Shown here: in pieces, positions 10,140-51,846 of the stretch
Layout of the letters: each line of letters begins with the position of its first letter
How positions within the stretch are numbered: position 1 is the stretch's first letter
Assembly (NCBI GenBank): GCA_015068645.1
Contig: SVKD01000008.1
Location: 1-64,000 of the forward strand
Source: Oscillospiraceae bacterium
Lineage (GTDB): Bacteria > Bacillota > Clostridia > UMGS1840
DNA length: 64,000 bases
Reading direction: 5' to 3'
The notes under the pieces: model-generated
The model's database searches: none
Seen by the model: only the letters and a program-made list of their open reading frames with translations
What the model was told of the DNA's origin: nothing
Program-made: the position numbers and the translations under genes

Positions 10140-10150
10140 AGATTTTTACC

Positions 10151-13460: not shown

Positions 13461-13534
13461 AATTTTCAATCCTTTCGGCATGGTTATTGCCAATCTCTTC
13501 CTTTGCTGAAGACGGGCAATAATATCTCAGCATT

Positions 13535-13830: not shown

Positions 13831-14065
13831 AAAATAAGATACTTGGGTTCGACCAAAAACTACAATTTCTGAACGAACCGATTCCCAAGCAGTGTTTTCT
13901 GAGATGACAACACTATCGGGCAGGACAACGTCAATCCCTATAAAAAGGGTGAGCTTTGTCCATTTTGTCGTCTGCGAAAAGTGTTTGGGGGGAGGCGGTT
14001 CGAAAATTGAAGTGCGGAAGAATCCGCGTGTTCCAAAACGCAAAAAAATCATTAAAGTAAGGTGG
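13831..14065 (+). ncRNA. Structured 5' leader of the ABC operon, class unknown
   Basis: Three successive stems: CTTGG/GTTCG near 13840 pairing with CGAAC and CCAAG near 13875-13890; AGTGTT with AACACT around 13891-13914; and GGACAA with TTGTCC around 13922-13960, enclosing CCCT/AGGG. A smaller GCGGA-AGAA-TCCGC hairpin follows. No known riboswitch class is recognised. It ends at AAGGTGG before the permease start. Confidence 0.45.
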
Positions 14066-14077
14066 AATGAGAGAAAA

Positions 14078-18049: not shown

Positions 18050-18139
18050 TTTCTGAAAGCATCCTGGAATTCCAGATGATAAGCTGACGTATCAGCAAAT
18101 GCGATATTGTTACACAACAGAAAATATGAGGAAGAATTT

Positions 18140-21100
18140 ATGAAGTTAATGAAAAAATCTTTTTGCCTGCTTTTGGCATTGATGATGCTGTTCGGCATGT
18201 CCATCATGGCAGAAGCAGAAGAGGCAACTCCCTTTAAACAGCATAATCTTCCGGGCACAATCAATATGGCAGACTTCGACTTGGGTGGTCCCGGTGTGGG
18301 CCACTCAAGAATGAATGGTCAGCCGGAATCCTATGCACAGAAGTATCGTGATGATGCTACATTGAACTTCTACACAAGCCCGGTTCTCCATATGGGTTCT
18401 ATGCCTCCCATGTGGTATCAGTATACCGTAAATGTTACCAAAGCAGGTACTTATGATATCTATGCAAGTGCAGCTGCAATGTACTCTCCCACCTTCGTTG
18501 TTAGTGTTGACGGTGTGGTAGCCGGAGAGGGCTCTGTTCCCGGTAGCGGAAACTGGTCTAACTTCTGGAGTGCAAAAGTTGCTTCTGCTGATATGACCGT
18601 GGGTAAACACGTGATTACCCTGGAACATAAAGGCGCAGGTGCTAACATTTACGAATTAAAATTCGAATATATGGGCGAACCTTCCAAAATCGACTTAGCT
18701 CCCACCGAAGGTGCATACCGTTTTCACTATCTGCCCACCAGAATTCAGGCAGAAGATTATGACGTAGATAATTTCTACAGCTTAGACGGTGAGAATGTTG
18801 GCGGTGAATACAGAAAAGATGACCCCATGGACACCGAAACCGACGAGTATGAGGAAGAATATCCCGACGGTTCCTGGGAAGAATTCGAAAGAACAACCGT
18901 AAACCTGAAACCGAAGGAATTTGTTACCTACACCGTTAAGGTTGAAAATGCAGGTGCCTATTCCTTACAGTTCAATGCAACTAAAAACAGTACTGTAACT
19001 GCTTACTTAAATGACATTGAATTAGGTATGGCTGATTTTACAGCAACCAATTATCGTGACACTTATGAAGCTGCAACTGTTTGGTTGGATAAAGGTGAAT
19101 ACAAACTGAAACTGGTTTGCCCTTCCAAGAGTGCAGCCATCGACTATATCGATTTCGTTGAAACTGATAAAGAAAGCTACACACTGGCAGACTTTATCAA
19201 ACCGGAAGAAGATACTACCGAAGAAGAAAAGATTCTGGCAAATGTTTACAAAGACATTTATGTAGCTCCTAACGGAAGCGATGAAAACGACGGTTCTAAA
19301 GCTGCTCCTTTTGCAACCTGGCAGAGAGCAAACGAAGAAGTTGCAAAATTTAATAAAGATATGACCGGCGATATCGTGGTTCATTTTGCAGGCGGTAACT
19401 ATCCCGTGAAAGAAATGATGACCATGGACGAAAAAATTAGCGGTTTCAATGGTTATAAAGTAATCTACAAAGGCGACGATCTGTTAAATCCCCCCGTATT
19501 CAACGGTGGTACTCAGATTACCGGATGGCAGCCTCAGGAAGGCACTCCCTTCTGGGTTGCTGATGCAAGCCATGTGGAAGATACCAGAAATATGTATGTG
19601 AATGAATTTCCTGCAGTTCTGGCAAAGAGCCGTTACAGATATCAGCCCAGTGAATTATATAAAATTGATGGAAGCAAATATGATTCCGACGGTTTTGTTG
19701 TTCCCTTGAGCAATTTCCCGAAAAAACTGACTCATCCGGAAGATATGATGATTGTTTGGCCTGTTCTTTGGACCACCTCCAGAACTCCGGTTGAATCCGC
19801 ATTCTATTCTGACACTTCGGTTACCTTTAAAATGACACAACCCGTGTGGACCTGTGCAACCAGCTTAGGCGGTGCCGGTCACTTGAATGTTGACCCCTCT
19901 GATACTTTCTACCTGGAAAATGCAATTGAATTGCTGGATGAACCCGGTGAATTCTTCTTTGATAAATATGACAAGAAGATTTACTACTATCCCTACCAGG
20001 AAGAAGATATGACCACTGCAGACGTTTGGGTTTCCACCACCGAAAAACTGCTCAATATGTCCGGTAGCTCCTTGATGACCAAGGTGCAGAACGTGGAATT
20101 TAATAACTTAAGATTCCAGTACGGTGCATGGAACGAGCTTTCTGAAACCGGTTTGAAAGAAAACCAGACTGACCAGTTGATTGTTGCAAGCACCAACGAT
20201 GCAGTTTGGCATAGAGAAGTTATGAAACCTGCACAGGTTACTATCGAATGTGCGCAGTATATTGACATTAAAAACTGCGAATTTGTAAACTTAGGTTCTA
20301 ACTGTCTGAATATGACCAATGGTATTTTAAATGCAAATATTGTTGGTAACTTATTTAGAGACAGTGCTGCAACCGGTTTGGTTGCTGGTAACTGGAACCA
20401 CAAGGTTGAACTTTCCGATGATCAGGAAAGATGTGAATACATCAATATTTCCAACAACTTATTCCATCGTGTGGCTTATGAACACTGTGGTTCTGCCGCA
20501 ATGGCAGTTTACTATCCCGCACACGCTACCATTGAACACAATGACGTTCGTGACGTTCCCTACACCGGTATCTCCGTTGGTTGGGGCTGGGGTGCATGGA
20601 ACCCGCCGGAAGTAAAAGATATCCACGTGTTATCCAACTACGTGGAAAACGTTACTTCTCAGAACTATGACGGTGCTCACATCTACACCTTAGGTAGAAT
20701 GGAAGACTCTACCATTAAATACAATCACTTAGTAAAATCCGGGGATACCCGTGGCGGTATTTACTTGGATGAAGCAAGTGCAGCGATCACCGTTGAAGAA
20801 AACGTTGTTCAGCGTGCAGCAAACCCCATCTTTGCACGTGCCGGCGCAATCATCAGAGATATTTATGCAAACAATAACTATGTTGATACCGATTACACCG
20901 GCTTTACTGCAGAAACTGTTGACTCTCACAGAAACAAAATTGATGTTACCTATCACATTTTAGATGGTAAATGGCCGGCAAGAGCACAGGAAATTATGGC
21001 TGATGCAGGCTTACAGGATCAGTATACTCACCTGTTAAAAGAAGCTGAATATCCCGATTGGAGAGTCTTCGCTTGGGAATACAATCCGGATTCTTTATAT

Positions 21101-22063
21101 CAGGTAGGCGTTGTTCCGGACGTAAACCGTTGGGTATTAGGTCAGGAATATGATGATTTCTTTGAAATCAGCCATGAAAAACCCACCGTATATGCAGGCG
21201 GTCACTTAGGTGACACCAAACCCGGCGAATGGGTATCTTTCAATGTTCACGTAGAAGATGAAGGCAATTATAAACTGTCTATCCGTGGTTCCGATGGTTG
21301 GACCGGCGGTGCAGATTGTACTGCAAAACTGACCTTGGATGACCAAGTAATTGCAGATGGCTTTATCATCAAACGTGGCGGTTGGGACCTGAAAAACTTT
21401 GAAGTTGGAACTGTTTATTTAACCAAAGGCGACCATGTCTTCAAAATGGAAGTTCAGGGTAACGACTGGATGGTCGGCGGCTTCATCTTTGATAACGGTA
21501 AACTGTTACCCGACGATCCCAACTTTGATGATTGTCAGCTCGTTGACCAGGAAACCTTCGTAGCACGCTTCACGGAAGGATTCCAGGATATTGACAATCA
21601 TTGGGCATACTACAACATTCTGGATATGACCGATGCAGGTTATATCAAAGGTTACGATGCATATACCTTTGGTCCTGATGATAACGTAACCTTACATCAG
21701 GCATGTATGTTGACCTTAAGAGTTATGAACGATACTTCTGATGATACCAACTGGAAAGAACAGGCAGTGGAACTGGGTATGCTCACTTCCGTAAACGAAC
21801 CCGATGCTCCTATTTCCAGAGAACGTTTCATCGATATCGTCATGAAAGCATACAAAAAAGTAGTTGGCAGTTATACCATCGTGGTTGATCACGAATACTG
21901 CACCGATGCTGATGCTATCAACGAACAGTATCGTCACGCAATCTATGGTGCAATTGATCAGGAACTGATCGAAGGTTATGAAGATGGCACTTTCCGTCCG
22001 GCAAACACCTTAAGCAGAGCTGAAGCAACCACTGTTTTATATCGTTTTACTGACAAGTTTTAA
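18140..22063 (+). CDS. SLH-anchored right-handed beta-helix protein with CBM-like modules
   Basis: 1307 aa from ATG 18140 (GAGGAAG upstream; the longer ATG at 18107 lacks a site). Order: signal peptide (1-26); two CBM6/35-like beta-sandwiches (about 40-170 and 190-340); right-handed parallel beta-helix (about 370-980) beginning DIYVAPNGSDENDGS; a third CBM-like module (about 1000-1130); and SLH repeats (1147-1307, first FQDIDNHWAYYNI, last YEDGTFRPANTLSRAEA). The helix has the GH141-like signature DGAHIYTLG (near 842) followed by GGIYLDEAS. It is probably anchored on secondary wall polymer and acts on a complex glycan. The enzyme class is inferred. Confidence 0.85.
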   Translation: MKLMKKSFCLLLALMMLFGMSIMAEAEEATPFKQHNLPGTINMADFDLGGPGVGHSRMNGQPESYAQKYRDDATLNFYTSPVLHMGSMPPMWYQYTVNVTKAGTYDIYASAAAMYSPTFVVSVDGVVAGEGSVPGSGNWSNFWSAKVASADMTVGKHVITLEHKGAGANIYELKFEYMGEPSKIDLAPTEGAYRFHYLPTRIQAEDYDVDNFYSLDGENVGGEYRKDDPMDTETDEYEEEYPDGSWEEFERTTVNLKPKEFVTYTVKVENAGAYSLQFNATKNSTVTAYLNDIELGMADFTATNYRDTYEAATVWLDKGEYKLKLVCPSKSAAIDYIDFVETDKESYTLADFIKPEEDTTEEEKILANVYKDIYVAPNGSDENDGSKAAPFATWQRANEEVAKFNKDMTGDIVVHFAGGNYPVKEMMTMDEKISGFNGYKVIYKGDDLLNPPVFNGGTQITGWQPQEGTPFWVADASHVEDTRNMYVNEFPAVLAKSRYRYQPSELYKIDGSKYDSDGFVVPLSNFPKKLTHPEDMMIVWPVLWTTSRTPVESAFYSDTSVTFKMTQPVWTCATSLGGAGHLNVDPSDTFYLENAIELLDEPGEFFFDKYDKKIYYYPYQEEDMTTADVWVSTTEKLLNMSGSSLMTKVQNVEFNNLRFQYGAWNELSETGLKENQTDQLIVASTNDAVWHREVMKPAQVTIECAQYIDIKNCEFVNLGSNCLNMTNGILNANIVGNLFRDSAATGLVAGNWNHKVELSDDQERCEYINISNNLFHRVAYEHCGSAAMAVYYPAHATIEHNDVRDVPYTGISVGWGWGAWNPPEVKDIHVLSNYVENVTSQNYDGAHIYTLGRMEDSTIKYNHLVKSGDTRGGIYLDEASAAITVEENVVQRAANPIFARAGAIIRDIYANNNYVDTDYTGFTAETVDSHRNKIDVTYHILDGKWPARAQEIMADAGLQDQYTHLLKEAEYPDWRVFAWEYNPDSLYQVGVVPDVNRWVLGQEYDDFFEISHEKPTVYAGGHLGDTKPGEWVSFNVHVEDEGNYKLSIRGSDGWTGGADCTAKLTLDDQVIADGFIIKRGGWDLKNFEVGTVYLTKGDHVFKMEVQGNDWMVGGFIFDNGKLLPDDPNFDDCQLVDQETFVARFTEGFQDIDNHWAYYNILDMTDAGYIKGYDAYTFGPDDNVTLHQACMLTLRVMNDTSDDTNWKEQAVELGMLTSVNEPDAPISRERFIDIVMKAYKKVVGSYTIVVDHEYCTDADAINEQYRHAIYGAIDQELIEGYEDGTFRPANTLSRAEATTVLYRFTDKF

Positions 22064-22088
22064 TTTATAGTTTCTAGCTTTTAGGACT

Positions 22089-22174
22089 ATCGTAAAAATG
22101 AAAATGGCTCCCTTGCCTTCAAACAAGCAGAAGGCAAGGGAAGTCTCACAACAATGTAGTACATCCTTTACGAT
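22089..22174 (+). promoter_or_regulatory. Nested intergenic hairpins
   Basis: ATCGTAAA (22089-22096) pairs with TTTACGAT (22167-22174), enclosing a perfect 12-bp stem TCCCTTGCCTTC (22109-22120) with GAAGGCAAGGGA (22130-22141). There is no T run directly after the stem, so it may be an mRNA-end stabiliser or weak terminator rather than a classic terminator. Confidence 0.55.
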
Positions 22175-22237
22175 GTTTCCCGCTATTTTTGTAAAAAAAA
22201 ATTAAAAATAAACAAAAAAAGAAAGGACATCAAGCTT

Positions 22238-25200
22238 ATGAAAAAACTCATTAGTATTTGCTTAACCATCTGTATGTTACTCAGCATGGTAAGCATCACA
22301 AACGTTTTTGCGGCTCCCACCTGGCCCGGCGCATACGGTGATTTGGGTACCGAGTACAAAAACGGCTACGTATCTACCGTGGATAGCATCAAAGGTGCAA
22401 TCCGCAATGGCGACGCTGCTGAAGCAGGCGTTGACTATCAGGCATCCTCTTCTGACCCCTGGGGTGCAGGTGGCATGTTCAACATGATTTCAGGCGACTG
22501 GGCGTACATCGTTGTTGATATGCCTTATACCGGTGTATATGCAATGCAGCTGAGAACCGAATGGACTTCCGGTTTCCCCTTTGTAATGCATGTAACCAGT
22601 GACGAAGGCTATGCAGCAGAATACAAAATCACCAACACCGGTTGGTCTTCCGGTTGCAAACAGGACCAGCCCATGTACTTAAAAGCTGGTACCAACGTGC
22701 TGAAATTCCAGCTGGTTGGTAGCAACAACGGTGGTATTTCTTCCATCGACTTTGGTGCATTAAATGCAACCAGCGCAGAAAAATCCTTAGACTTTTTACC
22801 CTTAGTAAAATTAGCAGACGATTTAGTAGTTCCTACTCCTGAACCGACTCCCGAACCGACTCCCGAACCGACTCCGAAGCCGTACTTCCCTGAAGGCTGG
22901 GACGGCGTGGTTGAAAATCATCCCGACGTAAACTTTGATGCAGAAGCACTCTATGTTGATGCATTCATGCCCAACATGTCTTCTGACGAAGGTACTGAAT
23001 TATACGGTACCGACTGGGGAACCGAAGGTTCTACCTCTATCCCCAACAAAGGTCAGCCCCTGGCTGTTTATTTAGCACCCGGTGCTTCCGTAACCTACAC
23101 TGTAAACGTAGATGCTGAAGGTGTATACGGTGCGCAGGTTAAAATGGGTACTGCAGAAGGTGAAGCTACCCTGCAGATGACCAATAACGTAAACGGCGTG
23201 GAATACATTTCTCAGCATACCTTCCCCAACCGCGGTACCTGGGTTACCACCTGGTCCAACGCTTCTGCTATTAAAGCGGACGACCTGATTTACTTACAGG
23301 CAGGCGATAACGAAATCACCATTACCAACGTTGGTAATTACGGTTGTACTTATGAAAACAACGACTTTGGTATCATTGCTGATTCTATGCAGTATATCGA
23401 TTGCGTTGGTACTCCCGAAAATCCTGCAGGTGTTGATCCTGAAGGATGGGACGGTATGGTTGACGAATTCGCAGGTTTCGCTGGCTACGACGGTTCTATT
23501 ACCGCACTTTCTTACAATGAATACATTATGCCCGTTCCCTATACCGAAAACGGTATTGATTTAGACGGTGTTTGGGTAAATTACACTGTAACCGCTCCTG
23601 CAGCTGGTATGTACTTAGTAGATGCAACTGCAGCTGACGAAGGCACTGCTACCTTAACCACCGAAGCTTTAGACTATGTAACCTTTGATTTTGCAGACTA
23701 TATGCCTGCTTACATCTATTTAGCAGAAGGCGATAACGTAATCAAAGCTACCGGTAATGCTGACTTTATCGGTGCAACCTTCTATCAGTTAAACAATTCT
23801 GAAGACTATTTAGATCAGAACAACAACGTAAACGATGCTCCCGATGAACCCATCGACTTAACTCCCAGAGTATACACCGACAGAACCAACGACAGTGGTT
23901 TCTATCAGTATGGTGCATACGAAGCAGTTGTTCAGTATGCTGGTTCTTCCATGACCTATGATGTAAGATGTGCATTCCCCGGTATCTACAGAGTACAGGC
24001 AAAAATCGGTGGTACTTCCAATGAAGGCCCCATTATTACCGTTGATACCGACGGTGACGAAGGATATCGTGCACAGTTGGCTACCACTTATGCTGATGAC
24101 TTTGGCGCTTGGAGAGCAACCGACGCAAACGGCGAATACCAGTATGTATACTTAAAAGAAGGTATCAACAAAGTTTCTGTTACCGCAGGTGGCACTCACC
24201 ACGTTCTGTGGAACTTAGAATTCAAACTGTTAAGCGAAGAAGAAAAAGCAACCATTACTATGGATGACTTAACCAAAACTCCTCCCGCTGACTTAGTAAT
24301 CAATCCTTACAACGATACCTTAACCGCTGGCGGCAAAAACTACGATTACTATCTGACCAATGCTGAAACTCCTGTTATAGGTTCTTCCATTGGTTGTCAG
24401 TTATTATCCGGTTGCTGGCAGAGATTTGAAGTAGAAGCAAGAGTTGCAGGTTACTACGATGTATACACCACTGCAGCTGTTTATGGTGCTGAAGCTACCA
24501 TCGCAGTAGAAACCAAAGATTCTATTGCAAAAGTTGATCATCCTGCAAGCCCCGATAACTACAGAACCATCAAAGGCGGCACCATTTATTTAGATGAAGG
24601 TGTAAACTCCGTTTGGGTTCAGAACTTAGGCGGCGGTTGGATGTACTTACAGAGAATTTCCTTCTCTTATGTAGAAGATACTTCTGCAGTTCTTCCCTCT
24701 GCATTTGTTCAGGCACATAACTATGTTGGTGCTCCTGCAGATTTAAGTGCAATCGAAAAATATACTGTAAGAAATAACTACTACGGTATCCACGTTGCAG
24801 ACAATAATGATACTGCAGCAAACACCTTCAAATATGAGTATACTATCAACATTCCTGCAGATGATTACTATGGTCTGGTTATGACCGCTACCGTTCCGCT
24901 GACTCCCACCGTTAAAATCACTATGAATGACGGCGTGAATGCAGAAATCGTAATGGTAGACGGCGAACTGCCTTACTTCGGTAACGAAAACGAAGTAGCA
25001 AGTGTAACCATCACTCCCGATAAAGTATTCTTACCGGCTGGTGAATACACCATGACCTTCACCTTAACCGAAAACAATGATGCAGGTGGAGATCGCTTCA
25101 TGATGACTCACGTTCACAGCTTTGAATTCACCACTCTGACTCGTCAGGATATGTTCTTAGCAGCAATGCAGTCTGCAGAAACCACTGAAGACATCGCAGA

Positions 25201-25639
25201 TGCTTTAGCAGAATTCGAAGATGTATTAACTTCCGACATCACCGTTACTCCCGAAACCGACTTCATCTATCCTGAATATGCATACAACGCATTATTAAAC
25301 TGCGCTATGTTAGAATCCGGTGCATATCAAACTTACGATGATATCAAAACTGCATACAACTTTGCAAAAGATATGATCACTGTTGCAGACGATGGTTCCG
25401 GTAACTTAGTATACACCTTCCAGGTTGGTGACTGGAACGCACCCGGCACTACTGTATTAGTTGCAGTATATACCGGCGAACAGTTATACATGATGGGCGA
25501 AGGCTATCTGGAATATGAAGAAGCAACCGGTTCTTATTTACCTGTAGAAGCTACTCTGTATGACTACGTTCCCGAAGACGGCGATACTATTAAAGTATTC
25601 GTTTGGGATAGCTTTGACGGCTTAAAACCCGTATTCTAA
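22238..25639 (+). CDS. Secreted multi-module protein without catalytic domain
   Basis: 1133 aa. Signal peptide (1-25, cleavage after NVFA). About six beta-sandwich modules follow. The first (26-190, WPGAYGDLG ... WSSGCKQDQPMYLK) is nearly the same as modules in the protein encoded at 30670, and a PTPEPTPEP linker comes after it. Then comes a helical segment (about 965-1045) and a final small beta domain ending IKVFVWDSFDGLKPVF. No beta-helix, SLH or sortase motif is present. It shares non-catalytic parts with its enzyme neighbours, so it may be a glycan-binding or scaffold partner. The function is not known. Confidence 0.8.
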   Translation: MKKLISICLTICMLLSMVSITNVFAAPTWPGAYGDLGTEYKNGYVSTVDSIKGAIRNGDAAEAGVDYQASSSDPWGAGGMFNMISGDWAYIVVDMPYTGVYAMQLRTEWTSGFPFVMHVTSDEGYAAEYKITNTGWSSGCKQDQPMYLKAGTNVLKFQLVGSNNGGISSIDFGALNATSAEKSLDFLPLVKLADDLVVPTPEPTPEPTPEPTPKPYFPEGWDGVVENHPDVNFDAEALYVDAFMPNMSSDEGTELYGTDWGTEGSTSIPNKGQPLAVYLAPGASVTYTVNVDAEGVYGAQVKMGTAEGEATLQMTNNVNGVEYISQHTFPNRGTWVTTWSNASAIKADDLIYLQAGDNEITITNVGNYGCTYENNDFGIIADSMQYIDCVGTPENPAGVDPEGWDGMVDEFAGFAGYDGSITALSYNEYIMPVPYTENGIDLDGVWVNYTVTAPAAGMYLVDATAADEGTATLTTEALDYVTFDFADYMPAYIYLAEGDNVIKATGNADFIGATFYQLNNSEDYLDQNNNVNDAPDEPIDLTPRVYTDRTNDSGFYQYGAYEAVVQYAGSSMTYDVRCAFPGIYRVQAKIGGTSNEGPIITVDTDGDEGYRAQLATTYADDFGAWRATDANGEYQYVYLKEGINKVSVTAGGTHHVLWNLEFKLLSEEEKATITMDDLTKTPPADLVINPYNDTLTAGGKNYDYYLTNAETPVIGSSIGCQLLSGCWQRFEVEARVAGYYDVYTTAAVYGAEATIAVETKDSIAKVDHPASPDNYRTIKGGTIYLDEGVNSVWVQNLGGGWMYLQRISFSYVEDTSAVLPSAFVQAHNYVGAPADLSAIEKYTVRNNYYGIHVADNNDTAANTFKYEYTINIPADDYYGLVMTATVPLTPTVKITMNDGVNAEIVMVDGELPYFGNENEVASVTITPDKVFLPAGEYTMTFTLTENNDAGGDRFMMTHVHSFEFTTLTRQDMFLAAMQSAETTEDIADALAEFEDVLTSDITVTPETDFIYPEYAYNALLNCAMLESGAYQTYDDIKTAYNFAKDMITVADDGSGNLVYTFQVGDWNAPGTTVLVAVYTGEQLYMMGEGYLEYEEATGSYLPVEATLYDYVPEDGDTIKVFVWDSFDGLKPVF

Positions 25640-25994
25640 AAAAATCTTCCTCTATTTCGCAAACCTCATCACTCGACGTACACAAGGTACGTCTTCGGAT
25701 AACCCCTGTGGGTTCGGTTTGCAAAATATAGTTTGATTTTTCTCACGTTGTTGCTTTAAAATAGCGTGAGAGCATACAAACAAAACAAACAAAAGGGACT
25801 CGGCAGGAGTGCTATGCTCCTGCCGACCCGAATGTTAAGATAGAACCCAAATCTCCCCGAGATGCAACTCTATTGAGGAAAAATTCTCCCATATTTCAGA
25901 TGACTGAGAATTTTGGAGGACGTTTCCTCTGTAGAATTGCGACATCAAAGAAATATTGAAACCCAAAAATTAATGAAAGGATTTCTTAAAATTT
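25640..25994 (+). promoter_or_regulatory. 355-bp gene-free region with four strong hairpins
   Basis: Holds (1) a three-way junction: GCAAACC (25659-25665) with GGTTTGC (25716-25722), enclosing GACGTAC/GTACGTC and AACCC/GGGTT arms; (2) TCTCACG (25741-25747) with CGTGAGA (25765-25771); (3) CGGCAGGAG (25801-25809) with CTCCTGCCG (25817-25825); (4) a long hairpin, GAGGAAAAATTCTC (25875-25888) with GAGAATTTT (25906-25914) and TTTCCTC (25923-25929). No ORF is convincing. A TTGATT-17-TTAAAA pair at 25733-25761 could be a weak promoter. Confidence 0.6.
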
Positions 25995-30590: not shown

Positions 30591-30600
30591 GACTCAATCC

Positions 30601-30629
30601 AATCGGACCTTACTAATCTCTGTCCGATT
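30601..30629 (+). promoter_or_regulatory. Intergenic hairpin
   Basis: AATCGGAC (30601-30608) pairs with GTCCGATT (30622-30629), 11 bases after the preceding stop codon. It is followed by CTAAAAAAAC rather than T. It belongs to the set of unrelated hairpins at the array junctions. Confidence 0.5.
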
Positions 30630-30669
30630 CTAAAAAAACAAACGATTACGTTTGAAGGAGGAGTTTCCC

Positions 30670-35247: not shown

Positions 35248-35285
35248 TCTGTGATAGCGTTATCATCGTTATAAACCTTAAAAAA

Positions 35286-35324
35286 ACTTCGGGATAAGTT
35301 TGAAAGGACGACTTATCCCGAAGT
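35286..35324 (+). promoter_or_regulatory. 14-bp perfect intergenic hairpin
   Basis: ACTTCGGGATAAGT (35286-35299) pairs perfectly with ACTTATCCCGAAGT (35311-35324); the loop is TTGAAAGGACG. No T run follows (GATTCCCAAAAAA). It lies in the junction between beta-helix genes 2 and 3. Confidence 0.6.
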
Positions 35325-35388
35325 GATTCCCAAAAAATAATCCCCCCGTACTATTTACAAAATTTTCAGCTTAAGGAGGGGCATAAAC

Positions 35389-38300
35389 GTGCAAACAAGC
35401 TTTAAAAAACTTATTTCGTTTCTTTTAGTTTGCACCATTATGAGCAGTTTATTGGTAGTTTTTGTACCAATGTCTGCAGCGGCAAGCGAAACCATCTCGT
35501 ATACCAATGCACCGTATGCAGGTGTGTATCAGGTAACTTCCGACAAAGCAGTAACTCTGACCAACGAAACCGGTCATACTGTTACCTTAAAAGCAGGGAG
35601 TTCTGATTACTTCTACCTGATCAAAGGTAATAACGACATTACCAAGAGTGTTGCATCAGCAAACTTAACCTTTACTGCATTAGACGGCAATGGTTTGGAT
35701 TATCTTGATCAAGTTTCCCAGACCAACGAGCCTATTCCTGTTGGGCAGGAAGATGTGGTAGTTACATTTGCTACCAAGGATGAACCCCATCTCGATCCCG
35801 GTGAATCCTACACTTTCACCTACACTCCCTCCAAGAGAAAGAACGGGATTGTGTATCCCTATCTTGCCTTTAACGATCCCAACGAATATGTGTTAAAGAT
35901 AACCACCGATACCGGTTATCAGACTACCATATATAAACCCGCAGGGTACCCTGTTACTTCTTATGCTTGGGAAGACAGCAAAAAAACAGACCCGGCTTTA
36001 ATGTATGTGAGAGATGGAAAAAACACCATCACCATTGAAAATATCAGCGATACCCAATCTGTGATTCATGCCATTCGTGTGCACAGTGGCGGCGAGCTGA
36101 TTGGCAATTCTTATTGGGATGCACAGATGAAAATGGCAGAGTTGGTTGTGATTCCGTTTACTGAAAGCGGCACCACACCCACTCCGATTCCTACTGTTGC
36201 ACCTACTCCGACTGCAACCCCAAAACCTACCTATGCACCGGCCGGAACGATGGAATACACTGCGGAGAATGCAGGAATCTATCGAGTAACCGCCGATCAA
36301 GCAGTGACCCTAACAAATGAAACGGGAAGCACGCTAACCTTAGCGGCGGATGACATCGGATATCTTTATCTGATTCAGGGTAACAATAAGATTACCACCT
36401 CCAATCCATCCGCTACCGTAACCTTTTCCAAGCTAACGAATTACGGAATGAGTTATCTTTCCAAAATCACTACCTCCTATATCCCCTATGCCACCGAACA
36501 TACCTCCTTTGGAGATCGACTCGATGTGGGTATTCACAATTATTTGGTAGGGGGAGAGGGAACCTACTCCACACAGACCAATGACATTGGTCAGTATATT
36601 GCCCTAAGCCCCGGTGCTTCTGTTACCTTACAGGCAGAGGTTTCTGCCGATGGTGCAGGCATTGTGTATCCGTACCTGGGTGTGTGTGACAATAAGGCGC
36701 ATAGCTTTGTTGTGACCTCCGATACCGGCTTCTATGCCGAACTTATGAAAAATAATACCACCGGTTGGCAGACCACCTGCTGGGCAGACGGTTCTGCACA
36801 GATGGATATGGAATTTCTCTATTTAAGAGAAGGAACCAACACCATCACCATTTTGAATACCGGAAGTAACACCGCTACCGTTGCATCCCTTCGTATGTCT
36901 ATGACAGATGGTTCCGACGGCGTGAAAAACCATGCAACATGGGGTTCCCAAATCAATTTAGTCAATTTAAAGGTAACAGAAGGGGCAAGCTTGCCTTCAC
37001 CTGTTCCCACTGCCGAACCGACTCCCACTCCTCCCTCGGTAAACCCAGATGTTTCCGACAGAGCGATGAGAACGGTGTACCAGGCTGAAAATTATGCCTC
37101 CGGCAGCATTTCCAAAACCACCTATGCCGGCACGTCAGTTGCCAAGGCGGGTTCGGAATCCAACGGTAGTTACACCATTAACGTAGAAGAAGATACAGTT
37201 TTCAATTTATATATGAAGGGCGCTGCCTGGAAGGATGTTTCCTTTGATATTTCCATCGACGGAACTAACTATTTTTATGAAAATATGCACTTCCAAAGCG
37301 ACCGCTCCGCCACCTATTCTTATAACGAGGAATGTGTGGCAACCTTCCCCTTATCCAAGGGAACGCATACACTGAAATTTACTTTCTATTGCGATACATT
37401 CTATTTTGATTCTTTCACCTTAGAAGACACCTACTCTAAGCAGTATCAGATTCTTTACGGAATCAAAGATATTGCTACCTCTCAAGGCATTTATGAAGCC
37501 CTGTTAACCTCCGGCGATTACATTTATATTGATGTGGAAGCCGACACCCAAGACCTGGCGTATCCGCCGATGGCATTTTGGAGTATGGTTGGTAAGGAGT
37601 ATGACACCCCTGCAGAGTTGGTTGCTCTTTATGAGGCAGCACTGGAGGAAGAAGCAGCAATCCCCACGGTCAGAATTAAAAACGCTTCCAACCAGGTGGT
37701 TGCAACCCTTCCGGAAGGACGTTCCACTGTGACCGTGAATTGCTCCAATATTCCTCGCAACATCACGCTGATTTGCGCAATTTACAAAGGCGGAAAGCTG
37801 GCGCAAATCCCAAAAACAGCAAGTAGCACCTCTACCACTGTTTCCTTTGGCTTAACAGATGTGGAAGCAGGTAGCACGCTTAAAATTCTGGCATTCTCCG
37901 ATATGGATGAGATTACGCCCTACACTGCCAGCGGTTCCTATATGGATTTCTACGTGGCACCCGGCGGAAAATCCACCAATGACGGATTATCGCCGGAAAA
38001 ACCTCTTGCCACTGTGGCACAAGCCCTTACCAAGGTAAAATCCGTAAATGCTTCCATGACCGGTGATATTGTCATTCATGTGGCTCCCGGTGTTTACCGC
38101 AGCAATACCACTCTTACGATTGACCCCACTATGAGCGGTCGAAACGGATATAAGGTAATTATCCGGGGAGACGACCCCGAAAATCGTCCGATTCTATCCG
38201 GTGGCGAATCGTTAACCGGTAAATGGAGCAAGGTTTCCGGCGAAGAATACTGGGTAGCTTCTACCACCACCCGTGAAACCAGAGCCTTGTATGTGAACGG

Positions 38301-39825
38301 CTACCAGGCAACTATGGCACGAAGCGATCAGTGGTATTGGGGAGATCCTATTACTCCAAGCTCGCCCAAAAACAGTTCTCATAAAGCAGACGGCATCAAG
38401 GTAAGCTTGAAGGAACGTCCTGATATTTCCAGAGAATTAAAAGGGGAGTCCCGGATGCAGATTGTATTCAATCTTGCATGGGCAAACCATCGTTTTCCGG
38501 TAGACAGCGTTACCTATGATTCCAACTATGCATATATCAACACCAAATATCCCTATTTTAACGCATATTTGCTCAATAATCATACGCAAACCATTATGCC
38601 TATTGACCCCAATGGCCATATCAGAGCATTCTATTTGGAAAATGCAATGGCACTCTTAGATGAACCCGGTGAGTTTTATTTCGATAAAGCTAACCAAAAA
38701 ATGTACTACTATCCCTATGCCAACGAAGATATGACCACTGCAAAAACCTATTGTGCCGTAACGGATGGATTGCTCACCATTCAAGGTGTCAGCTCCTCTT
38801 CCAAGGTGGAAAATTTGGAATTTCAAAATATTTCCTTCCAACACGGTGCCTGGGACGATGCCACTACCTACGGTGCGGCATTTAACCAGTCTGACGAGCT
38901 TCGCATCGGCACCCAAACCTATTATACTCAAAAGCTGATGCATGCGCAGGTTTTGGTTTCTTATGCAGATTCCGTTGTGTTTAACGGTTGTGAATTTGCT
39001 TGTCTTGGCTCCAGCGGTATCTATTTTACCGAAGGCGTGTCCAACTCCAAAGTGATTCACAGTGATTTCCACGATATTTCCGGCGGCGGCATATCGGTAG
39101 GAAGCTATCTGCACAATAAAACCTACGACGGCAAGGTGGAGCGTTGCTCCAATATTGAAATCGGAGACAACATTTTCCGCCGTTGTACCCAAGAATTTTT
39201 GGGACTGAATGCAGTTGCCGTGTATTATGCAAACGGCGTAAACATTCATCATAACGACATCAGAAATCTGGGCTACACCGGAATTGCCGTAGGCTGGGGA
39301 TGGGGCTACAATGCTTCCACCCAATGCGGTAATCACACGGTGGCATACAACAAAATCCAGGATTGCTTGCAGGTATTGGACGATGGCGCCCAGGTTTACA
39401 CCTTATGCGATCAGTTAAATACCCACATTATGGATAACTATTTTATAGATCCCGATGACTTCCGTCGCGGTGGCTTATATCTTGATGAAGGCTCCGGCTA
39501 CATTCAGATTTGCGATAATGTGTTCCAAAAAGCCAATGATTCCGGTGACTTCTGGCTCTTTGCAAGAAAAAATGTTCACTTAAATGACAACTATGCAGCC
39601 TATAACCATACCGACGGCGGTGACCCCAAATATTTTGGCACCTTCCCGTTGGATACTGCCGGTGTGACATACAGCTCCAATAACATCAATGTTCGCACCT
39701 GGAGCCAGACCGCACAGCGTGTTATGGCAGAAGCAGGCGTGGAAGATAAGTCCAGAGTTGCTGCTATCGACTATTATCCCACCTGGCGTACCATGCGTGG
39801 TGTGGATAAACCTGCAGACGAATAA
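35389..39825 (+). CDS. Giant modular GH141-like beta-helix protein 3
   Basis: 1478 aa from GTG 35389 behind AAGGAGGGG. Signal peptide (about 1-28), then two copies of a ~230-residue repeat (NAPYAGVYQVTSDKAVTLTN; NAGIYRVTADQAVTLTN), PT linkers, a CBM-like module (about 555-685), a helical spacer (YQILYGIKDIATSQGIYEAL), a small beta domain, and a beta-helix (about 850-1478) with DDGAQVYTL (near 1331) and GGLYLDEGSG. The N-terminal half matches protein 4; the C-terminal half matches protein 1, down to identical DNA stretches of over 30 bases. It appears to be a mosaic. Its codon use is more mixed than that of its neighbours. Confidence 0.85.
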   Translation: MQTSFKKLISFLLVCTIMSSLLVVFVPMSAAASETISYTNAPYAGVYQVTSDKAVTLTNETGHTVTLKAGSSDYFYLIKGNNDITKSVASANLTFTALDGNGLDYLDQVSQTNEPIPVGQEDVVVTFATKDEPHLDPGESYTFTYTPSKRKNGIVYPYLAFNDPNEYVLKITTDTGYQTTIYKPAGYPVTSYAWEDSKKTDPALMYVRDGKNTITIENISDTQSVIHAIRVHSGGELIGNSYWDAQMKMAELVVIPFTESGTTPTPIPTVAPTPTATPKPTYAPAGTMEYTAENAGIYRVTADQAVTLTNETGSTLTLAADDIGYLYLIQGNNKITTSNPSATVTFSKLTNYGMSYLSKITTSYIPYATEHTSFGDRLDVGIHNYLVGGEGTYSTQTNDIGQYIALSPGASVTLQAEVSADGAGIVYPYLGVCDNKAHSFVVTSDTGFYAELMKNNTTGWQTTCWADGSAQMDMEFLYLREGTNTITILNTGSNTATVASLRMSMTDGSDGVKNHATWGSQINLVNLKVTEGASLPSPVPTAEPTPTPPSVNPDVSDRAMRTVYQAENYASGSISKTTYAGTSVAKAGSESNGSYTINVEEDTVFNLYMKGAAWKDVSFDISIDGTNYFYENMHFQSDRSATYSYNEECVATFPLSKGTHTLKFTFYCDTFYFDSFTLEDTYSKQYQILYGIKDIATSQGIYEALLTSGDYIYIDVEADTQDLAYPPMAFWSMVGKEYDTPAELVALYEAALEEEAAIPTVRIKNASNQVVATLPEGRSTVTVNCSNIPRNITLICAIYKGGKLAQIPKTASSTSTTVSFGLTDVEAGSTLKILAFSDMDEITPYTASGSYMDFYVAPGGKSTNDGLSPEKPLATVAQALTKVKSVNASMTGDIVIHVAPGVYRSNTTLTIDPTMSGRNGYKVIIRGDDPENRPILSGGESLTGKWSKVSGEEYWVASTTTRETRALYVNGYQATMARSDQWYWGDPITPSSPKNSSHKADGIKVSLKERPDISRELKGESRMQIVFNLAWANHRFPVDSVTYDSNYAYINTKYPYFNAYLLNNHTQTIMPIDPNGHIRAFYLENAMALLDEPGEFYFDKANQKMYYYPYANEDMTTAKTYCAVTDGLLTIQGVSSSSKVENLEFQNISFQHGAWDDATTYGAAFNQSDELRIGTQTYYTQKLMHAQVLVSYADSVVFNGCEFACLGSSGIYFTEGVSNSKVIHSDFHDISGGGISVGSYLHNKTYDGKVERCSNIEIGDNIFRRCTQEFLGLNAVAVYYANGVNIHHNDIRNLGYTGIAVGWGWGYNASTQCGNHTVAYNKIQDCLQVLDDGAQVYTLCDQLNTHIMDNYFIDPDDFRRGGLYLDEGSGYIQICDNVFQKANDSGDFWLFARKNVHLNDNYAAYNHTDGGDPKYFGTFPLDTAGVTYSSNNINVRTWSQTAQRVMAEAGVEDKSRVAAIDYYPTWRTMRGVDKPADE

Positions 39826-39841
39826 ATTCTGTTCAAAATAA

Positions 39842-39878
39842 TTCTCGGAATATGCTTTTTTTGCATATTCCGGGAGAA
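39842..39878 (+). promoter_or_regulatory. Intergenic hairpin with T7 loop
   Basis: GGAATATGC (39847-39855) pairs with GCATATTCC (39863-39871), loop of seven T; TTCTC (39842-39846) pairs with GAGAA (39874-39878) past a two-base bulge. It lies in the junction of beta-helix genes 3 and 4; no downstream T run. Confidence 0.55.
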
Positions 39879-39935
39879 AAATAAAAACCCCCGTAAACCA
39901 CATTATATTTTCAACTTAAGGAGGGTCTTGACATT

Positions 39936-42900
39936 ATGACAACAAGCTTTAAAAAGTTACTATCGTTCCTTCTGGTATGCACCATGATGTGTAGCCTGCT
40001 GGTAGCTTTAGTACCCGCAACTGCAGTGCTTGCAGCAAGTGAAGCTATCTCGTACACCGATGCACCTTATGCAGGTGTGTATCAGGTAACTTCCAACAAA
40101 GCAGTTACCTTGACCAACGAAACCGGTCATACTGTTACCTTAAAAGCAGGTGTTGCCGATTACTTCTACCTGATTAAAGGTAATAACAACATTACCAAAA
40201 GTGTTTCATCAGCAACCTTAACCTTTACCGCATTAGATGGTAATGGTTTGGATTATATCAACAAAGTTGCTATGACCAAAGAGCCCGTTCTTCCCGGTGA
40301 TACCGGCGATACGGTTGCAGGCTTTAGTTATGTGACTTTGGCTCCCGGTGCAAAACACACCGCAACCTATACTCCGGGTGTAATCGATGCAGGTCTTGTA
40401 TATCCCTATATTGCTCCCGCATCTGGCGCAGGTAACTCTGTAAGAGTAACCACCGATACCGGCTACTATGCAGACATCTATCTTGCTTATAACTATAGCT
40501 CTTCTGCATGGGCAGATGCTGCTCGTCAGGATCCTGAAATGCTCTATGTAAGAGACGGCAAACAGGAAATTACCATTGAAAATATCGGTACTTCCTCTGT
40601 TACGCTGTATGCTGTTGGCATTCGTACTACCGGTGTTTTAGCGGAAGCTGATTACTGGAAAGACCAGATGAATATGGCATCCTTGAAGGTTGTTCCCTAT
40701 AGTCTCACTCCCGAGCCGACTCCGGAACCGACTCCTGAAGTACTTACCGTTACTTACGAAGCACAATACGCAGGTGTTTATGCAGTTTCTTCCAACAAAG
40801 CGGTTACCTTAACCAACGAAACCGGTTCTGTGGCAGCATTAACTGCAGGCGCAACCAAATACATTTACTTAATCGCAGGTGAAAACAAAATCACCACCAC
40901 CGACCTTGATGCAGAATTAACCTTTACCGCTTTAGATGACAATGGTAAAGCTTACTTCAATCAGGTGAATATTCCCAAAGAACCCATCATCTCCGGTCAG
41001 GAAGACAGAGTTGCGTCAGCTATTTACAAAGCTTTGGCTCCCGGAGAAACCTATACCTTTACCTATACTCCTTCCAAAGGAATGGCGGGTATCGTATATC
41101 CCTACATTGCCTTCAATGGTGGTGCAGAAGCTACTGTCAGAGTTACCACCGATACCGGCTTCTATGGCGATATATACAATCCTGCAGGAACCAGCGGCAG
41201 CTCCCAAGCTTGGGCAGATGCAGCAAGACAGGATCCCGAAATGGTATATGTAAGAAATGGTGAAAACACCATCACCATCGAAAACATCGGATCCACCGAT
41301 ACTACACTGTACACTATTGCAATTCATAGTGCAGGAGAACTGGTTGGCAACTCAGCCTGGGATCCTCAGATGAAAATGACTGAGTTGAAAGTGGTTGCAT
41401 ACAGCAACGAACCCGAAGCAACTCCCACTCCGACTCCCACACCTGTTCCCACTCCTGCTGCAGACTTTGTTACTTACACTGCTCTTTATGCAGGGGTGCA
41501 CAAAGTAACTTCCGACAAAGCGGTTACTTTGACCAGCGAAACCGGTTCCGTTGCAGCATTAGCAGCAAACGAAACCAAATACATCTACTTAATCGCAGGT
41601 GTAAATAAAATTCAAACCACTAACAAAAATGCAAACGTAACCTTTACCAACTTGGAAGATAACGGCCTGGCATATATTGATCAGATTTCTGCTCCTTCTG
41701 TATGCTACGCAGTAGACCATACGCAGGCTATTAACAGCCTGATGTCTCTGGAATCCGGCGCATCTGTTACTGTAAATGCAACTGTAGGCGCTACCGGTGC
41801 AGGTATTGTTTATCCGTACCTGAATGTTCAGGATGACCTTCAGCATACCTTTGAAATCACCTCCGATACCGGCTTCTATGCAGAAATTACCAAAGATGCT
41901 GCCGGTTGGCAGACTACCTGTTGGAAAGACGGTTCCAAACAGCAAGATATGGAATTCTTGTATGTAAGAGAAGGCGTAAACCAGATCACCATCACCAATA
42001 CCGGTTCCAATGCTGCACTCATCGGTTCCTTGCGTTTGTCTAAAACCGCAGAAACCGCAATCAAAGACCATGCAGTATGGGGTCCTCAGGTTAATCTGAA
42101 AAACTTAAAAACTTTGGAAGTAGATCTTCCCACTCCTACCGCTCCTCCCACCGCAACCTTCGCTCCGGTTGGCACCATCACTTATGATGCTCCCAGCGCA
42201 GGTATCTATCGTGTGGCTTCTGATAAAGCGGTAACCTTAATTAACGAAACCGGTTCTACCGTAACCTTCTCCGGAAGCGGTACCGTAAAATATTTGTATA
42301 TGATCAAAGGCGTGAACAATCTGAGCACCTCTGATTTATCTGCAGATATTACCTTCAATGAGTTAGATGCATTCGGTATGAATCATCTTTCCAAAATCGA
42401 AACTGCATTTACTGCATACGGCAGACAGCACGTTTCTGTTGCTGATATCCACAATTTTGTGGAAGCAGACGGCACCTATCAGACCGGTACCAATGAGAAC
42501 GGTAAGTTTGTGAATCTGTCTCCCGGTGCTGCGATTACTTATGAATTAACCATGTCGAAAGACGGGGCAGGTATCGTATATCCCTACCTTGGTGTATTAG
42601 ATGGTGCAGAAAACACCTTTGAAATCACCTCCGATACCGGCTTTTATGCAGAAATTTTAAAACCTGTAAGCAGCGGTTCCTTCTGTTGGGCAGATGCCGA
42701 CAGATTGGATATGGAATTCTTGTATGTAAGAGAAGGCAAGAACCTGATCACCATTAAAAATACAGGTTCTTCCATTGCAACCGTAACTGCGTTGCGTCTT
42801 TCCATGACTGACGGGGAAGACGGTCTGGCAGACCACGAAACTTGGGGTCCCCAGATGAACTTACAAAACTTGAAAGTCTTCAGCGGAAGCAGCAATGCAG

Positions 42901-45719
42901 CTCCCACTGCAACTCCCGCACCCGTTCTGCCCGATGTTTCCAACACAGACTTATACACGGTTATTGAAGCGGAAACTTCCGTTTCCACCGCATTAACCGA
43001 ACAAGCTACCTACAACGGCAAAAACGGTCTGAAACTGACCGATATGTACACCGAAGCAGCGTACACCTTGGATGTGGCGCAGGAAACTGTTTACAACCTG
43101 AATATGGTTGGTGCTGCTTGGAAAGATGTAAACTTCGACTTATATGTGGATGACACCTTAGTGGATTACGCTACCATGCATTTTGATAATGACAGAAGCG
43201 GAACCACTTGGGCATACCAGCAGGAAGAAGTGGCGCAGCTTCACCTGGATGCAGGTACTCACACCTTAAAATTTGTGTTCTACTGCGATACCTTCTATTT
43301 TGATTCTATCGTTTTGGAAGACACAAACTCCATGTACTATCATCTGATTCACGATTTCAAAGATATTACCACCGCGGAAGGTGCATTTGATCTTCTGGAA
43401 AAATACGGCGCATCTGCAAACATCGACGTGAATGCAGACACCGTAAACCATGTATATGCACCCATGTCCTTCTGGAATATGGTTGGTAAAAACTACGAAA
43501 CTGCAGCCGAAATGCTGGAAGCTTACAACGAATGTATCGTAGATCCCACTGTAATCGTGAAGAATGCTTCCGGTCAGGAAGTTAGTGCAATGCCCGAAGG
43601 CACTGCTTATGTGTCTGTGGATTGCATGAACATTCCTTCCGAGGTTACCTTAATTGCAGCAGTTTACAGCGGTAAACAGCTGGTAGCAGTAACTGCTATG
43701 ACCAGAGAAAACGGTCTGGCAACTGCAGCGTTCACTGAACTTTCTGCAGGTTGCAATCTGAAAGTACTGGCAATGACTGATTTAGCAGAAGCTGCTCCCT
43801 ATGCAAAAGAAGTTTACGGCACTCCTTACCGTGAAATCTATGTGGCAACTACCGGTAAATCTACTAATGCAGGTACCAAGGAAGCTCCCGTAAACAACTT
43901 AGCAAATGCACTGAAAATTGTAAAAACCATCAACGCTGATATGACCGGCGACATTATCGTAAATGTTGCTCCCGGCACTTACAAAAGCTCCGTTTCCATT
44001 GATATCGATTCCACCATGGGCGGTAAAAACGGTCACAAAGTTATCATTCGTGCAGAAGATATGAACAATAAACCTGTTTTATCCGGCGGGGAAGACTTAA
44101 CCGGTAAATGGAGCAAGGTAGACGGTGAAAACTACTATGTAGCATCTACCTCTACCCGTGAAACCAGAGCCCTGTTTGTAAACGGCTATCAGGCTACCTT
44201 AGCAAGAAGTGACGAATGGTATTCAGGTGCCCTGATGAATCCTGCCGAAAAGAAAAATGATTCTCATGTAACTGACGGTATTCTGTTGTCCCTCTCCGGT
44301 GGCAACAAAGACTTCCCCAAAGGTTTAGACCAGCAGACCGAAGTTCAGTCTTCCAGAATGCAGATCGTATTCAGTCTGCAGTGGGCAAATCATCGTTTCC
44401 CCTTAGACAGAATCGAATACAGTGGTAGCAATGCCTACATTTACACCACTTATCCCTACTACAATGCATTCTGTATCGAAGGATTACACACCTCCACCAT
44501 CACTCCCGGTCAGGGACAGAAATTCTATTTGGAAAACTCTCTGCTGCTCTTAGATAAACCCGGCGAGTTCTACTTCGATAAAGAAGATCGCAAAATGTAC
44601 TACTATCCCTACGCCGAGGAAAATATGGCTACCATCGAAACCTGGTGTGCAGTAACCGACGGTATGATGAATATCACCGGTGTTGGCAGCAACAACAAAG
44701 TTACCAACTTAGAATTTGACGGTATTTCCTTCCGTTACGGCGGATATGATGACTTTACCGTAAAAGGTGTAGCATTCAACCAGACCGACGAATGGAGATT
44801 AGGCGGTGAAACTTACTACGGTCAGCATTTGTTCCCCGCGCAGATCGTGGCAAAATATGCAGATTCTTTAGTATTTAAAAACTGTGAATTCGGTTCTATG
44901 GGCTCCAGCGCCATCATTTTGGAAGAAGGCGTTTCCAACTCTCAGATTACCGGTAGCTATTTCCACGATATCGCAGGTACCGGCGTTGTACTCGGTGACT
45001 ACAGAGACGGTAATTCTGCAGCCTCCGGTACGGAACGTTGTAAAAACATTGAAATTGACAACAATATCTTCCGTCGTACCGCTCAGGAATTCCAGGGCTT
45101 AACTGCAATTTCCGTATATTATGTGGGCAATGCAAACATTCACCACAACGATATTAAAGATACCTCTTATTCCGGTATCGTTGTTGGTTGGGGTTGGGGA
45201 TATGATGATCCCGTTGACTGCGGTAATCACAACATCTCCTACAACAAGATTGACAATGTAATGCAGACCATGGGTGATGGTGCTCACATCTACACCTTAG
45301 GTAATCTTCGCGGAACTCAGATTAACGATAACTATGTCATCGACCCGGGTCAGATCAAAGCTCCCGGCATCTACTTTGACCAGGGTACCGGTTACACCAA
45401 CGTTTGTGATAACGTTGTAACTAATGCTTATGACAATAGCAGCGAATACTGGTTCTTTGCAAGACAGCTTGTAAATATCAATAACTGTTTTGCAGGATAT
45501 AACCATACCGATGGCAGAGACCCCTCTAAAATTTATGGCACCAACGGAACCAGCACCAAGGAAGTTGCTTTAAAAGGTAACTCCTACAGAGTATCCACCT
45601 GGTCTACCGCTGCACAGAGAATTATGGCGGAAGCAGGGCTGGAAGATAAAACCAGATTAAACGAAATCGATACTTATCCCACCTGGAGAACCATGCGTAT
45701 GCTGGATATCCCGAATTAA
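39936..45719 (+). CDS. Giant modular GH141-like beta-helix protein 4
   Basis: 1927 aa, the largest product in the window. Signal peptide (about 1-33), four copies of the ~235-residue repeat seen twice in protein 3 (starting near 33, 268, 509 and 745; each with AGVYxVxSxKAVTLTxETG, then a beta-sandwich with GIVYPY and TDTGFYA), linkers with P/T, a CBM-like module (about 1000-1125), a helical spacer (from 1131) and a beta-helix (about 1297-1927) with LFVNGYQATLARS, GDGAHIYTLG (near 1780) and GIYFDQGTG. Preceded by TTAAGGAGG. No cell-wall anchor motif. Confidence 0.85.
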   Translation: MTTSFKKLLSFLLVCTMMCSLLVALVPATAVLAASEAISYTDAPYAGVYQVTSNKAVTLTNETGHTVTLKAGVADYFYLIKGNNNITKSVSSATLTFTALDGNGLDYINKVAMTKEPVLPGDTGDTVAGFSYVTLAPGAKHTATYTPGVIDAGLVYPYIAPASGAGNSVRVTTDTGYYADIYLAYNYSSSAWADAARQDPEMLYVRDGKQEITIENIGTSSVTLYAVGIRTTGVLAEADYWKDQMNMASLKVVPYSLTPEPTPEPTPEVLTVTYEAQYAGVYAVSSNKAVTLTNETGSVAALTAGATKYIYLIAGENKITTTDLDAELTFTALDDNGKAYFNQVNIPKEPIISGQEDRVASAIYKALAPGETYTFTYTPSKGMAGIVYPYIAFNGGAEATVRVTTDTGFYGDIYNPAGTSGSSQAWADAARQDPEMVYVRNGENTITIENIGSTDTTLYTIAIHSAGELVGNSAWDPQMKMTELKVVAYSNEPEATPTPTPTPVPTPAADFVTYTALYAGVHKVTSDKAVTLTSETGSVAALAANETKYIYLIAGVNKIQTTNKNANVTFTNLEDNGLAYIDQISAPSVCYAVDHTQAINSLMSLESGASVTVNATVGATGAGIVYPYLNVQDDLQHTFEITSDTGFYAEITKDAAGWQTTCWKDGSKQQDMEFLYVREGVNQITITNTGSNAALIGSLRLSKTAETAIKDHAVWGPQVNLKNLKTLEVDLPTPTAPPTATFAPVGTITYDAPSAGIYRVASDKAVTLINETGSTVTFSGSGTVKYLYMIKGVNNLSTSDLSADITFNELDAFGMNHLSKIETAFTAYGRQHVSVADIHNFVEADGTYQTGTNENGKFVNLSPGAAITYELTMSKDGAGIVYPYLGVLDGAENTFEITSDTGFYAEILKPVSSGSFCWADADRLDMEFLYVREGKNLITIKNTGSSIATVTALRLSMTDGEDGLADHETWGPQMNLQNLKVFSGSSNAAPTATPAPVLPDVSNTDLYTVIEAETSVSTALTEQATYNGKNGLKLTDMYTEAAYTLDVAQETVYNLNMVGAAWKDVNFDLYVDDTLVDYATMHFDNDRSGTTWAYQQEEVAQLHLDAGTHTLKFVFYCDTFYFDSIVLEDTNSMYYHLIHDFKDITTAEGAFDLLEKYGASANIDVNADTVNHVYAPMSFWNMVGKNYETAAEMLEAYNECIVDPTVIVKNASGQEVSAMPEGTAYVSVDCMNIPSEVTLIAAVYSGKQLVAVTAMTRENGLATAAFTELSAGCNLKVLAMTDLAEAAPYAKEVYGTPYREIYVATTGKSTNAGTKEAPVNNLANALKIVKTINADMTGDIIVNVAPGTYKSSVSIDIDSTMGGKNGHKVIIRAEDMNNKPVLSGGEDLTGKWSKVDGENYYVASTSTRETRALFVNGYQATLARSDEWYSGALMNPAEKKNDSHVTDGILLSLSGGNKDFPKGLDQQTEVQSSRMQIVFSLQWANHRFPLDRIEYSGSNAYIYTTYPYYNAFCIEGLHTSTITPGQGQKFYLENSLLLLDKPGEFYFDKEDRKMYYYPYAEENMATIETWCAVTDGMMNITGVGSNNKVTNLEFDGISFRYGGYDDFTVKGVAFNQTDEWRLGGETYYGQHLFPAQIVAKYADSLVFKNCEFGSMGSSAIILEEGVSNSQITGSYFHDIAGTGVVLGDYRDGNSAASGTERCKNIEIDNNIFRRTAQEFQGLTAISVYYVGNANIHHNDIKDTSYSGIVVGWGWGYDDPVDCGNHNISYNKIDNVMQTMGDGAHIYTLGNLRGTQINDNYVIDPGQIKAPGIYFDQGTGYTNVCDNVVTNAYDNSSEYWFFARQLVNINNCFAGYNHTDGRDPSKIYGTNGTSTKEVALKGNSYRVSTWSTAAQRIMAEAGLEDKTRLNEIDTYPTWRTMRMLDIPN

Positions 45720-45803
45720 CTCAGGGATGCACAAAGAAATAATCGGACTGCTTTGTTGCAGGTACCAATGATTCTTAGTGTTGATGTTTTAAAAACTGTT
45801 TCT

Positions 45804-45831
45804 CGGGCAGAGGAGTAGATGCCTCTGCCCG
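45804..45831 (+). promoter_or_regulatory. 10-bp GC-rich intergenic hairpin
   Basis: CGGGCAGAGG (45804-45813) pairs with CCTCTGCCCG (45822-45831). An A/T-rich stretch follows that may hold a promoter (TTGAAA near 45846 with a TATATT about 15 bases on), but the spacing is poor. Confidence 0.5.
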
Positions 45832-45929
45832 GGGAACCCCAAATTTTGAAAATAATTTTAGTTACATATATTTCGCTAATAAAAATTTTATATATATCAA
45901 ATTACAGCAAAAATTAAGGAGGATTGCTT

Positions 45930-51787: not shown

Positions 51788-51810
51788 TTTCTGAATCCAA
51801 ACAATAAAAA

Positions 51811-51841: not shown

Positions 51842-51846
51842 GTATT

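Follow-up and report, generated by a model that had tools for sequence, protein, structure and literature searches.

Five giant proteins with a GH141-type domain are encoded in a head-to-tail array of six secreted-type open reading frames, all on the + strand, at 18107-45719 of the window, the whole 64-kb stretch of DNA that was analysed (Table 1). The array is real, is conserved in the genus and has been reshuffled. Its enzymes belong to the known family GH141 and its tandem layout is not unique; its N-terminal modules are unique to the genus. The source is a gut Clostridia bacterium with a genome of 1.76 Mb that is 97.3% complete. The preliminary description of this DNA had reported giant tandem GH141-like beta-helix proteins, and this is borne out. 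GH141 has few characterised members with very different activities, and five paralogues that all keep the catalytic residues in one small genome form a good panel for specificity determinants. The array and its sister orthologues also show front-end swapping between neighbouring enzyme genes, and the array exposes two unannotated module families that are common to enzymes of unrelated chemistry.

Table 1 Features of the GH141 array, its flanks and related loci. Plain coordinates are window positions; coordinates with an L prefix refer to other loci.
Feature	Position	Strand	Content
Histidine kinase, YesM/YesN-kind two-component system (8529-11704)	8529-10139	-	
Response regulator, same system	10151-11704	-	AraC helix-turn-helix
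GH123-type protein	11778-13493	-	PF13320, 353 bits (cut-off 23); Asp-Glu pair (SDEP); no evident signal peptide
ABC sugar-importer permease 1	13892-15121	+	PF00528; kept in sisters
ABC sugar-importer permease 2	15140-16027	+	PF00528; kept in sisters
Putative solute-binding lipoprotein	16130-18049	+	Lipobox LGAC; no Pfam match; role inferred from position and lipobox
Gene 1	18107-22063	+	CBM6-like domains; GH141-type beta-helix domain 19256-21094; C-terminal CBM35-like domain; two SLH domains
Gene 2	22238-25639	+	1133 aa; no helix; TGVY-type modules, one full and three divergent
Gene 3	25995-30590	+	1531 aa; one divergent and two full TGVY modules (26538-26987, 27267-27722); Thr-Pro linkers
Gene 3, rest	27819-28712; 28719-30575	+	Connector (CBM6-like, helical, Ig-like); GH141-type domain
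Gene 4	30652-35247	+	1531 aa; three TGVY modules (30757-31266, 31336-31833, 31903-32355)
Gene 4, rest	32464-33360; 33367-35241	+	Connector; GH141-type domain
Gene 5	35389-39825	+	1478 aa; two 235-residue repeats (35491-36159, 36247-36981)
Gene 5 junction	36960-37005	+	DNA similarity switches from gene 6 to gene 3, inside Thr-Pro linker
Gene 5, rest	37048-37941; 37948-39822	+	Connector; GH141-type domain
Gene 6	39936-45719	+	1927 aa; four 235-residue repeats (40047-40700, 40746-41402, 41469-42122, 42174-42884)
Gene 6, rest	42933-43817; 43836-45716	+	Connector; GH141-type domain
Downstream protein	45924-48983	+	Three SLH domains; Ig-like domains; N-terminal module weakly like that of gene 3
Sixth GH141 gene, same genome, contig C5	L025:7334-14918		Neighbours: distant Fucose_iso_C protein, PocR/AraC-type regulator, D-psicose 3-epimerase family protein
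Non-catalytic gene, genome G003	L034:5904-10256		Two 235-residue repeats and gene-2-like remainder; between genes 1 and 2
Giant secreted proteins, same genome	L097:2004-8702; L100:2-5083; L099:6860-9052		Alkaline phosphatase and/or GDSL esterase with the same modules

Genes 3-6 share a common plan, in which a signal-peptide-like start is followed by N-terminal modules, Thr-Pro linkers, the connector and a GH141 region at the extreme C-terminus. Gene 1 departs from this plan, with CBM6-like domains ahead of the helix and SLH domains behind it; counted from the ATG at 18140, its product has the earlier stated length of 1307 aa. All five enzymes start with a signal-peptide-like N-terminus. As a small correction to the preliminary description, the gene 2 product carries no helix; its modules are of the TGVY type.

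An assembly artefact was rejected for the array, since genes 1, 2, 3, 4 and 6 were found in the same order in three independently assembled genomes of the same genus, without gene 5 at that place. One of the three, G003, has its array on two contigs, with the break in gene 3; in the remaining genus genome, G002, the contig ends beside gene 1. Similarly, gene 5 is 73% identical in DNA to gene 3 and 64-82% identical to gene 6; chimeric assembly was excluded for this gene because no segment is near-identical to the presumed source genes. Promoter-like sites were no commoner than in shuffled sequence, and transcription units were therefore left uninferred. Terminator-like sites numbered 29 in 32000-51900 against 17.7 in shuffles, most of them inside genes. 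Strong inverted repeats of 10 pairs lie at 25800-25826 (between genes 2 and 3) and 39846-39872 (between genes 5 and 6) and are possible regulatory hairpins.

The catalytic regions were assigned by profile matches and by alignment to a solved relative. All five array enzymes exceed the curated cut-off of GH141_M (PF21231), with 33.3-42.2 bits against 27. The Beta_helix profile of Pfam is above cut-off in four of the five, and gene 1 lies slightly under it (23.5 against 25.9 bits). NCBIfam profiles gave no informative match to the array proteins. The nearest solved structure is BT_1002 (5mqp), with E-values of 5.6e-41 for gene 3 and 5.1e-43 for gene 1; the whole GH141 domain aligns to it, and the profile and the alignment together indicate a right-handed parallel beta-helix. 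The catalytic residues of BT_1002 are Asp523 and Asp564 (PMC10154630, PMC5593877). These correspond in the alignment to residues 528 and 569 of the 5mqp chain, with a spacing of 41 in both numberings, and their counterparts in the array are the Asp of DG(A/S)xIYT and the Asp of Y(L/F)D. The landmarks DGAxIYT and Y[LF]D, already singled out in the preliminary description, are the active site, because both BT_1002 aspartates fall there. Both residues are present in the five array enzymes and throughout the 21 same-genus copies, and nearly all class relatives have them too. These data support the prediction that the five array proteins are GH141-type enzymes.

The activities already known in GH141 are fucosidase, xylanase and endo-fucanase (PMC12786026). 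The alpha-L-fucosidase BT_1002 of Bacteroides thetaiotaomicron shares with the array the GH141 beta-helix, the insertion domain and both aligned aspartates. It is a single compact protein with a 624-residue chain, lacks these N-terminal modules and belongs to a different GH141 branch. The endoxylanase Xyn141E (XynE, Cthe_2195) of Clostridium thermocellum resembles the array in its GH141 domain, its two aspartates (Asp540 and Asp577; PMC5593877) and its CBM6. However, Xyn141E is dockerin-borne and cellulosomal with the CBM6 at the C-terminus, whereas the array proteins gave no dockerin match and gene 1 carries SLH domains. The Wf141 endo-fucanases of Wenyingzhuangia fucanilytica (PMC12786026) differ from the array in being marine and active on sulfated fucan.

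Phylogenetic analysis placed all same-genus GH141 copies in a single clade (support 100/99), within which genes 3, 4, 5 and 6 group together and gene 1 groups with the sixth-locus gene. The array therefore grew by duplication within the lineage, and the tree indicates that its helices arose through local duplication. The clade is a deep, genus-restricted branch of GH141, apart from BT_1002 and from the dockerin-bearing XynE-like proteins. GH141_M was found in 5 of 5 genus genomes, which are all that represent the family and the genus, in none of the remaining four genomes of the order, and in 35 of 293 class genomes. This genome holds six GH141_M genes, five in the array and the sixth on another contig. 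The preliminary description had not recognised the layout as a described system. Two or three large GH141_M genes lie close together in several other Clostridia (G038, G249, G016 and G032), so the tandem arrangement is not peculiar to the array; the uniqueness holds for the N-terminal modules. The proteins examined from those clusters match neither module family nor the connector.

Separate trees for helices and N-terminal modules, which had been proposed as a check, revealed independent histories, and gene 5 is an example. In its catalytic region, gene 5 branches as the sister of the four gene-3 orthologues together (100/99 and 100/100). Its repeat 1 groups with gene-6 repeats 1 and 2, and its repeat 2 with repeat 4 (97/92, 92/88). 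By these comparisons, gene 5 is a chimera of a gene-6-type front and a gene-3-type back. Similarly, module 3 of gene 4 nests within gene-3 module 2 (100/95) in three sister species and not in this genome; as judged from the tree, one gene-4 module in those species derives from gene 3. The number of repeats in gene 6 is four in three genomes but drops to one in G004. The G003 gene of Table 1 has a relative in the window's genome that is 70% identical and lies on another contig. The proposal that catalytic parts diverge and binding parts multiply is right in that module number changes; it is too simple, since modules are also exchanged between genes and a sister has one repeat where four are present here. 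On sequence comparison, the front ends form a pool that is used genus-wide and exchanged between neighbouring genes at the Thr-Pro linkers.

The module counts of the preliminary description were largely upheld. The 235-residue repeat occurs exactly twice in gene 5 and four times in gene 6, each with an i-E below 1e-90. Gene 4 has three modules of the TGVY type; only one literally reads WPGAY, and the others read WTGKF and WIGNV. The structure model of the 235-residue repeat (pLDDT 93.5) is a predicted beta-sandwich. Foldseek linked it weakly to CBM35, CBM36 and CBM6 structures (E about 1e-3 to 1e-2, TMt up to 0.49), and the repeat had no sequence match in Pfam or PDB; PDB searches with the module profiles gave no useful match. 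A literature search for a module-bearing pectin degrader returned nothing. The TGVY and 235-residue types are partly related, because the second half of the repeat shares homology with the TGVY module (hhalign 97%, linkers removed). The first half gave no reliable homology to the TGVY module (hhalign 47%, 14 columns). The connector (model pLDDT 89.7) consists of a CBM6/35-like domain, a helical stretch and an Ig-like domain. Its first domain reaches a Foldseek TMt of 0.6-0.71 to CBM6 and CBM35 structures, and the CBM_6 profile is above cut-off in the connector of gene 4. The modules are predicted to be beta-sandwiches, perhaps broadly of the CBM6/35 kind.

In a search that took in 289 other class genomes, the 235-residue repeat was confined to this genus, and the TGVY module likewise except for three marginal matches (E 1e-4 to 1e-3). 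Elsewhere in the genome and the genus, both families occur on giants with alkaline phosphatase or GDSL esterase domains and on non-catalytic ones. The carriers in this genome are a 2232-aa protein in which five repeats are combined with alkaline phosphatase and GDSL esterase domains, a 730-aa GDSL protein, a large alkaline-phosphatase protein and two non-catalytic proteins. The modules are therefore unlikely to be specific to one glycan, and the earlier view of them as binding parts for a single glycan is not sustained. Their presence on alkaline-phosphatase-type proteins speaks against simple glycan targeting. Their candidate role is that of a targeting or surface/anchoring module used throughout the genus. 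The modules might bind no carbohydrate at all and instead anchor secreted proteins to the envelope of the producing cell, in place of SLH domains, which genes 3-6 do not have. This alternative, which is compatible with any helix substrate, holds a substantial minority of the probability. The unrelated carriers and the restriction to the genus fit it, as does the finding by Pfam profiles that gene 1 alone among the five array enzymes has SLH domains; the resemblance of the folds to CBM6/35/36 modules, weak for the 235-residue repeat, and a copy number more variable than an anchor needs argue the other way.

The flanking genes bear on the substrate. GH123 members act on beta-linked GalNAc. The GH123 gene adjoins the importer in divergent orientation and is 88-93% identical at the same place in two sister genomes. 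The putative solute-binding lipoprotein is 67-75% identical at the same place in the sisters, and the protein downstream of gene 6 is also found there in three sister genomes (43-65% identical). L-fucose isomerase is present in 5 of 5 genus genomes; here it is a 597-aa protein (L064:8795-10588) that stands alone, with no kinase or aldolase gene beside it. Xylose, rhamnose and uronate isomerases were not found in this genome by searches that matched in control genomes; at 97.3% completeness, an absent isomerase gene may be missing by chance. Together, these absences, the L-fucose isomerase and the GH123 make pectin and xylan less likely nutrients and point weakly to a glycan containing fucose and GalNAc, for example host mucin, as the candidate target. 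The record titles of the relatives name deer caecum and rectum.

The explanation favoured here, at slightly better than even odds in our judgement, combines a duplicated set of secreted GH141 enzymes and their one non-catalytic companion, swapped fronts, the importer and GH123 with this fucose- and GalNAc-containing candidate target, such as mucin. The modules would keep the enzymes attached to mucus, fibre or the cell surface, and the helices would cleave a complex polymer extracellularly. The released oligosaccharides would enter via the ABC importer, and GH123 and L-fucose isomerase would act inside the cell. Different copies may cut different linkages, and there may be the division of labour on one glycan that the preliminary description suggested. 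More tentatively, and rather doubtful as a whole, the array may represent a genus-restricted GH141 subfamily of undescribed specificity, probably for fucosylated host glycans, with new surface/targeting modules as interchangeable front ends.

A xylan-degrading set, on the ground of closer kinship to the XynE type, is unlikely. The array clade and the clade holding L103, a GH141-CBM6-dockerin protein of XynE architecture, do lie on the same side of the tree (98/95), and the host animals are plant eaters according to the record titles. However, the array clade (100/99) stands outside the XynE-like clade (100/100) in a tree from which Xyn141E itself is absent, and long branches (0.8 and 1.4 changes per column) separate the clades, so that neither BT_1002 nor XynE function is transferable to the array. 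The lack of xylose isomerase in this genome and the presence beside the importer of GH123, which is not a xylan enzyme, also weigh against xylan.

Degradation of pectin RG-II in the manner of BT_1002 is very improbable. Among solved structures no other matches as well as BT_1002, but it was the sole annotated GH141 enzyme found in the structure library and so matches by default. A clade of the array with BT_1002 was rejected (p-AU 0.031, with long branches), and BT_1002 was placed with other class sequences. Neither rhamnose nor uronate isomerase was found in this genome. Likewise very improbable is that the helices are non-enzymatic adhesins, as their very large size, many repeats and non-catalytic companions might suggest, since no same-genus copy, and hardly any class relative, has lost either catalytic aspartate.

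The distant Fucose_iso_C protein next to the sixth GH141 gene was set aside as evidence for a fucose isomerase, since its resemblance is to sulfoquinovose isomerase and lies far under the cut-off of that model (114 against 700 bits); the 597-aa L064 protein was taken instead. This sixth locus possibly represents a separate sugar-isomer pathway. Elsewhere in the window, the gene at 61455-62627 encodes a protein that has SLH domains as well as leucine-rich repeats of the BspA type.
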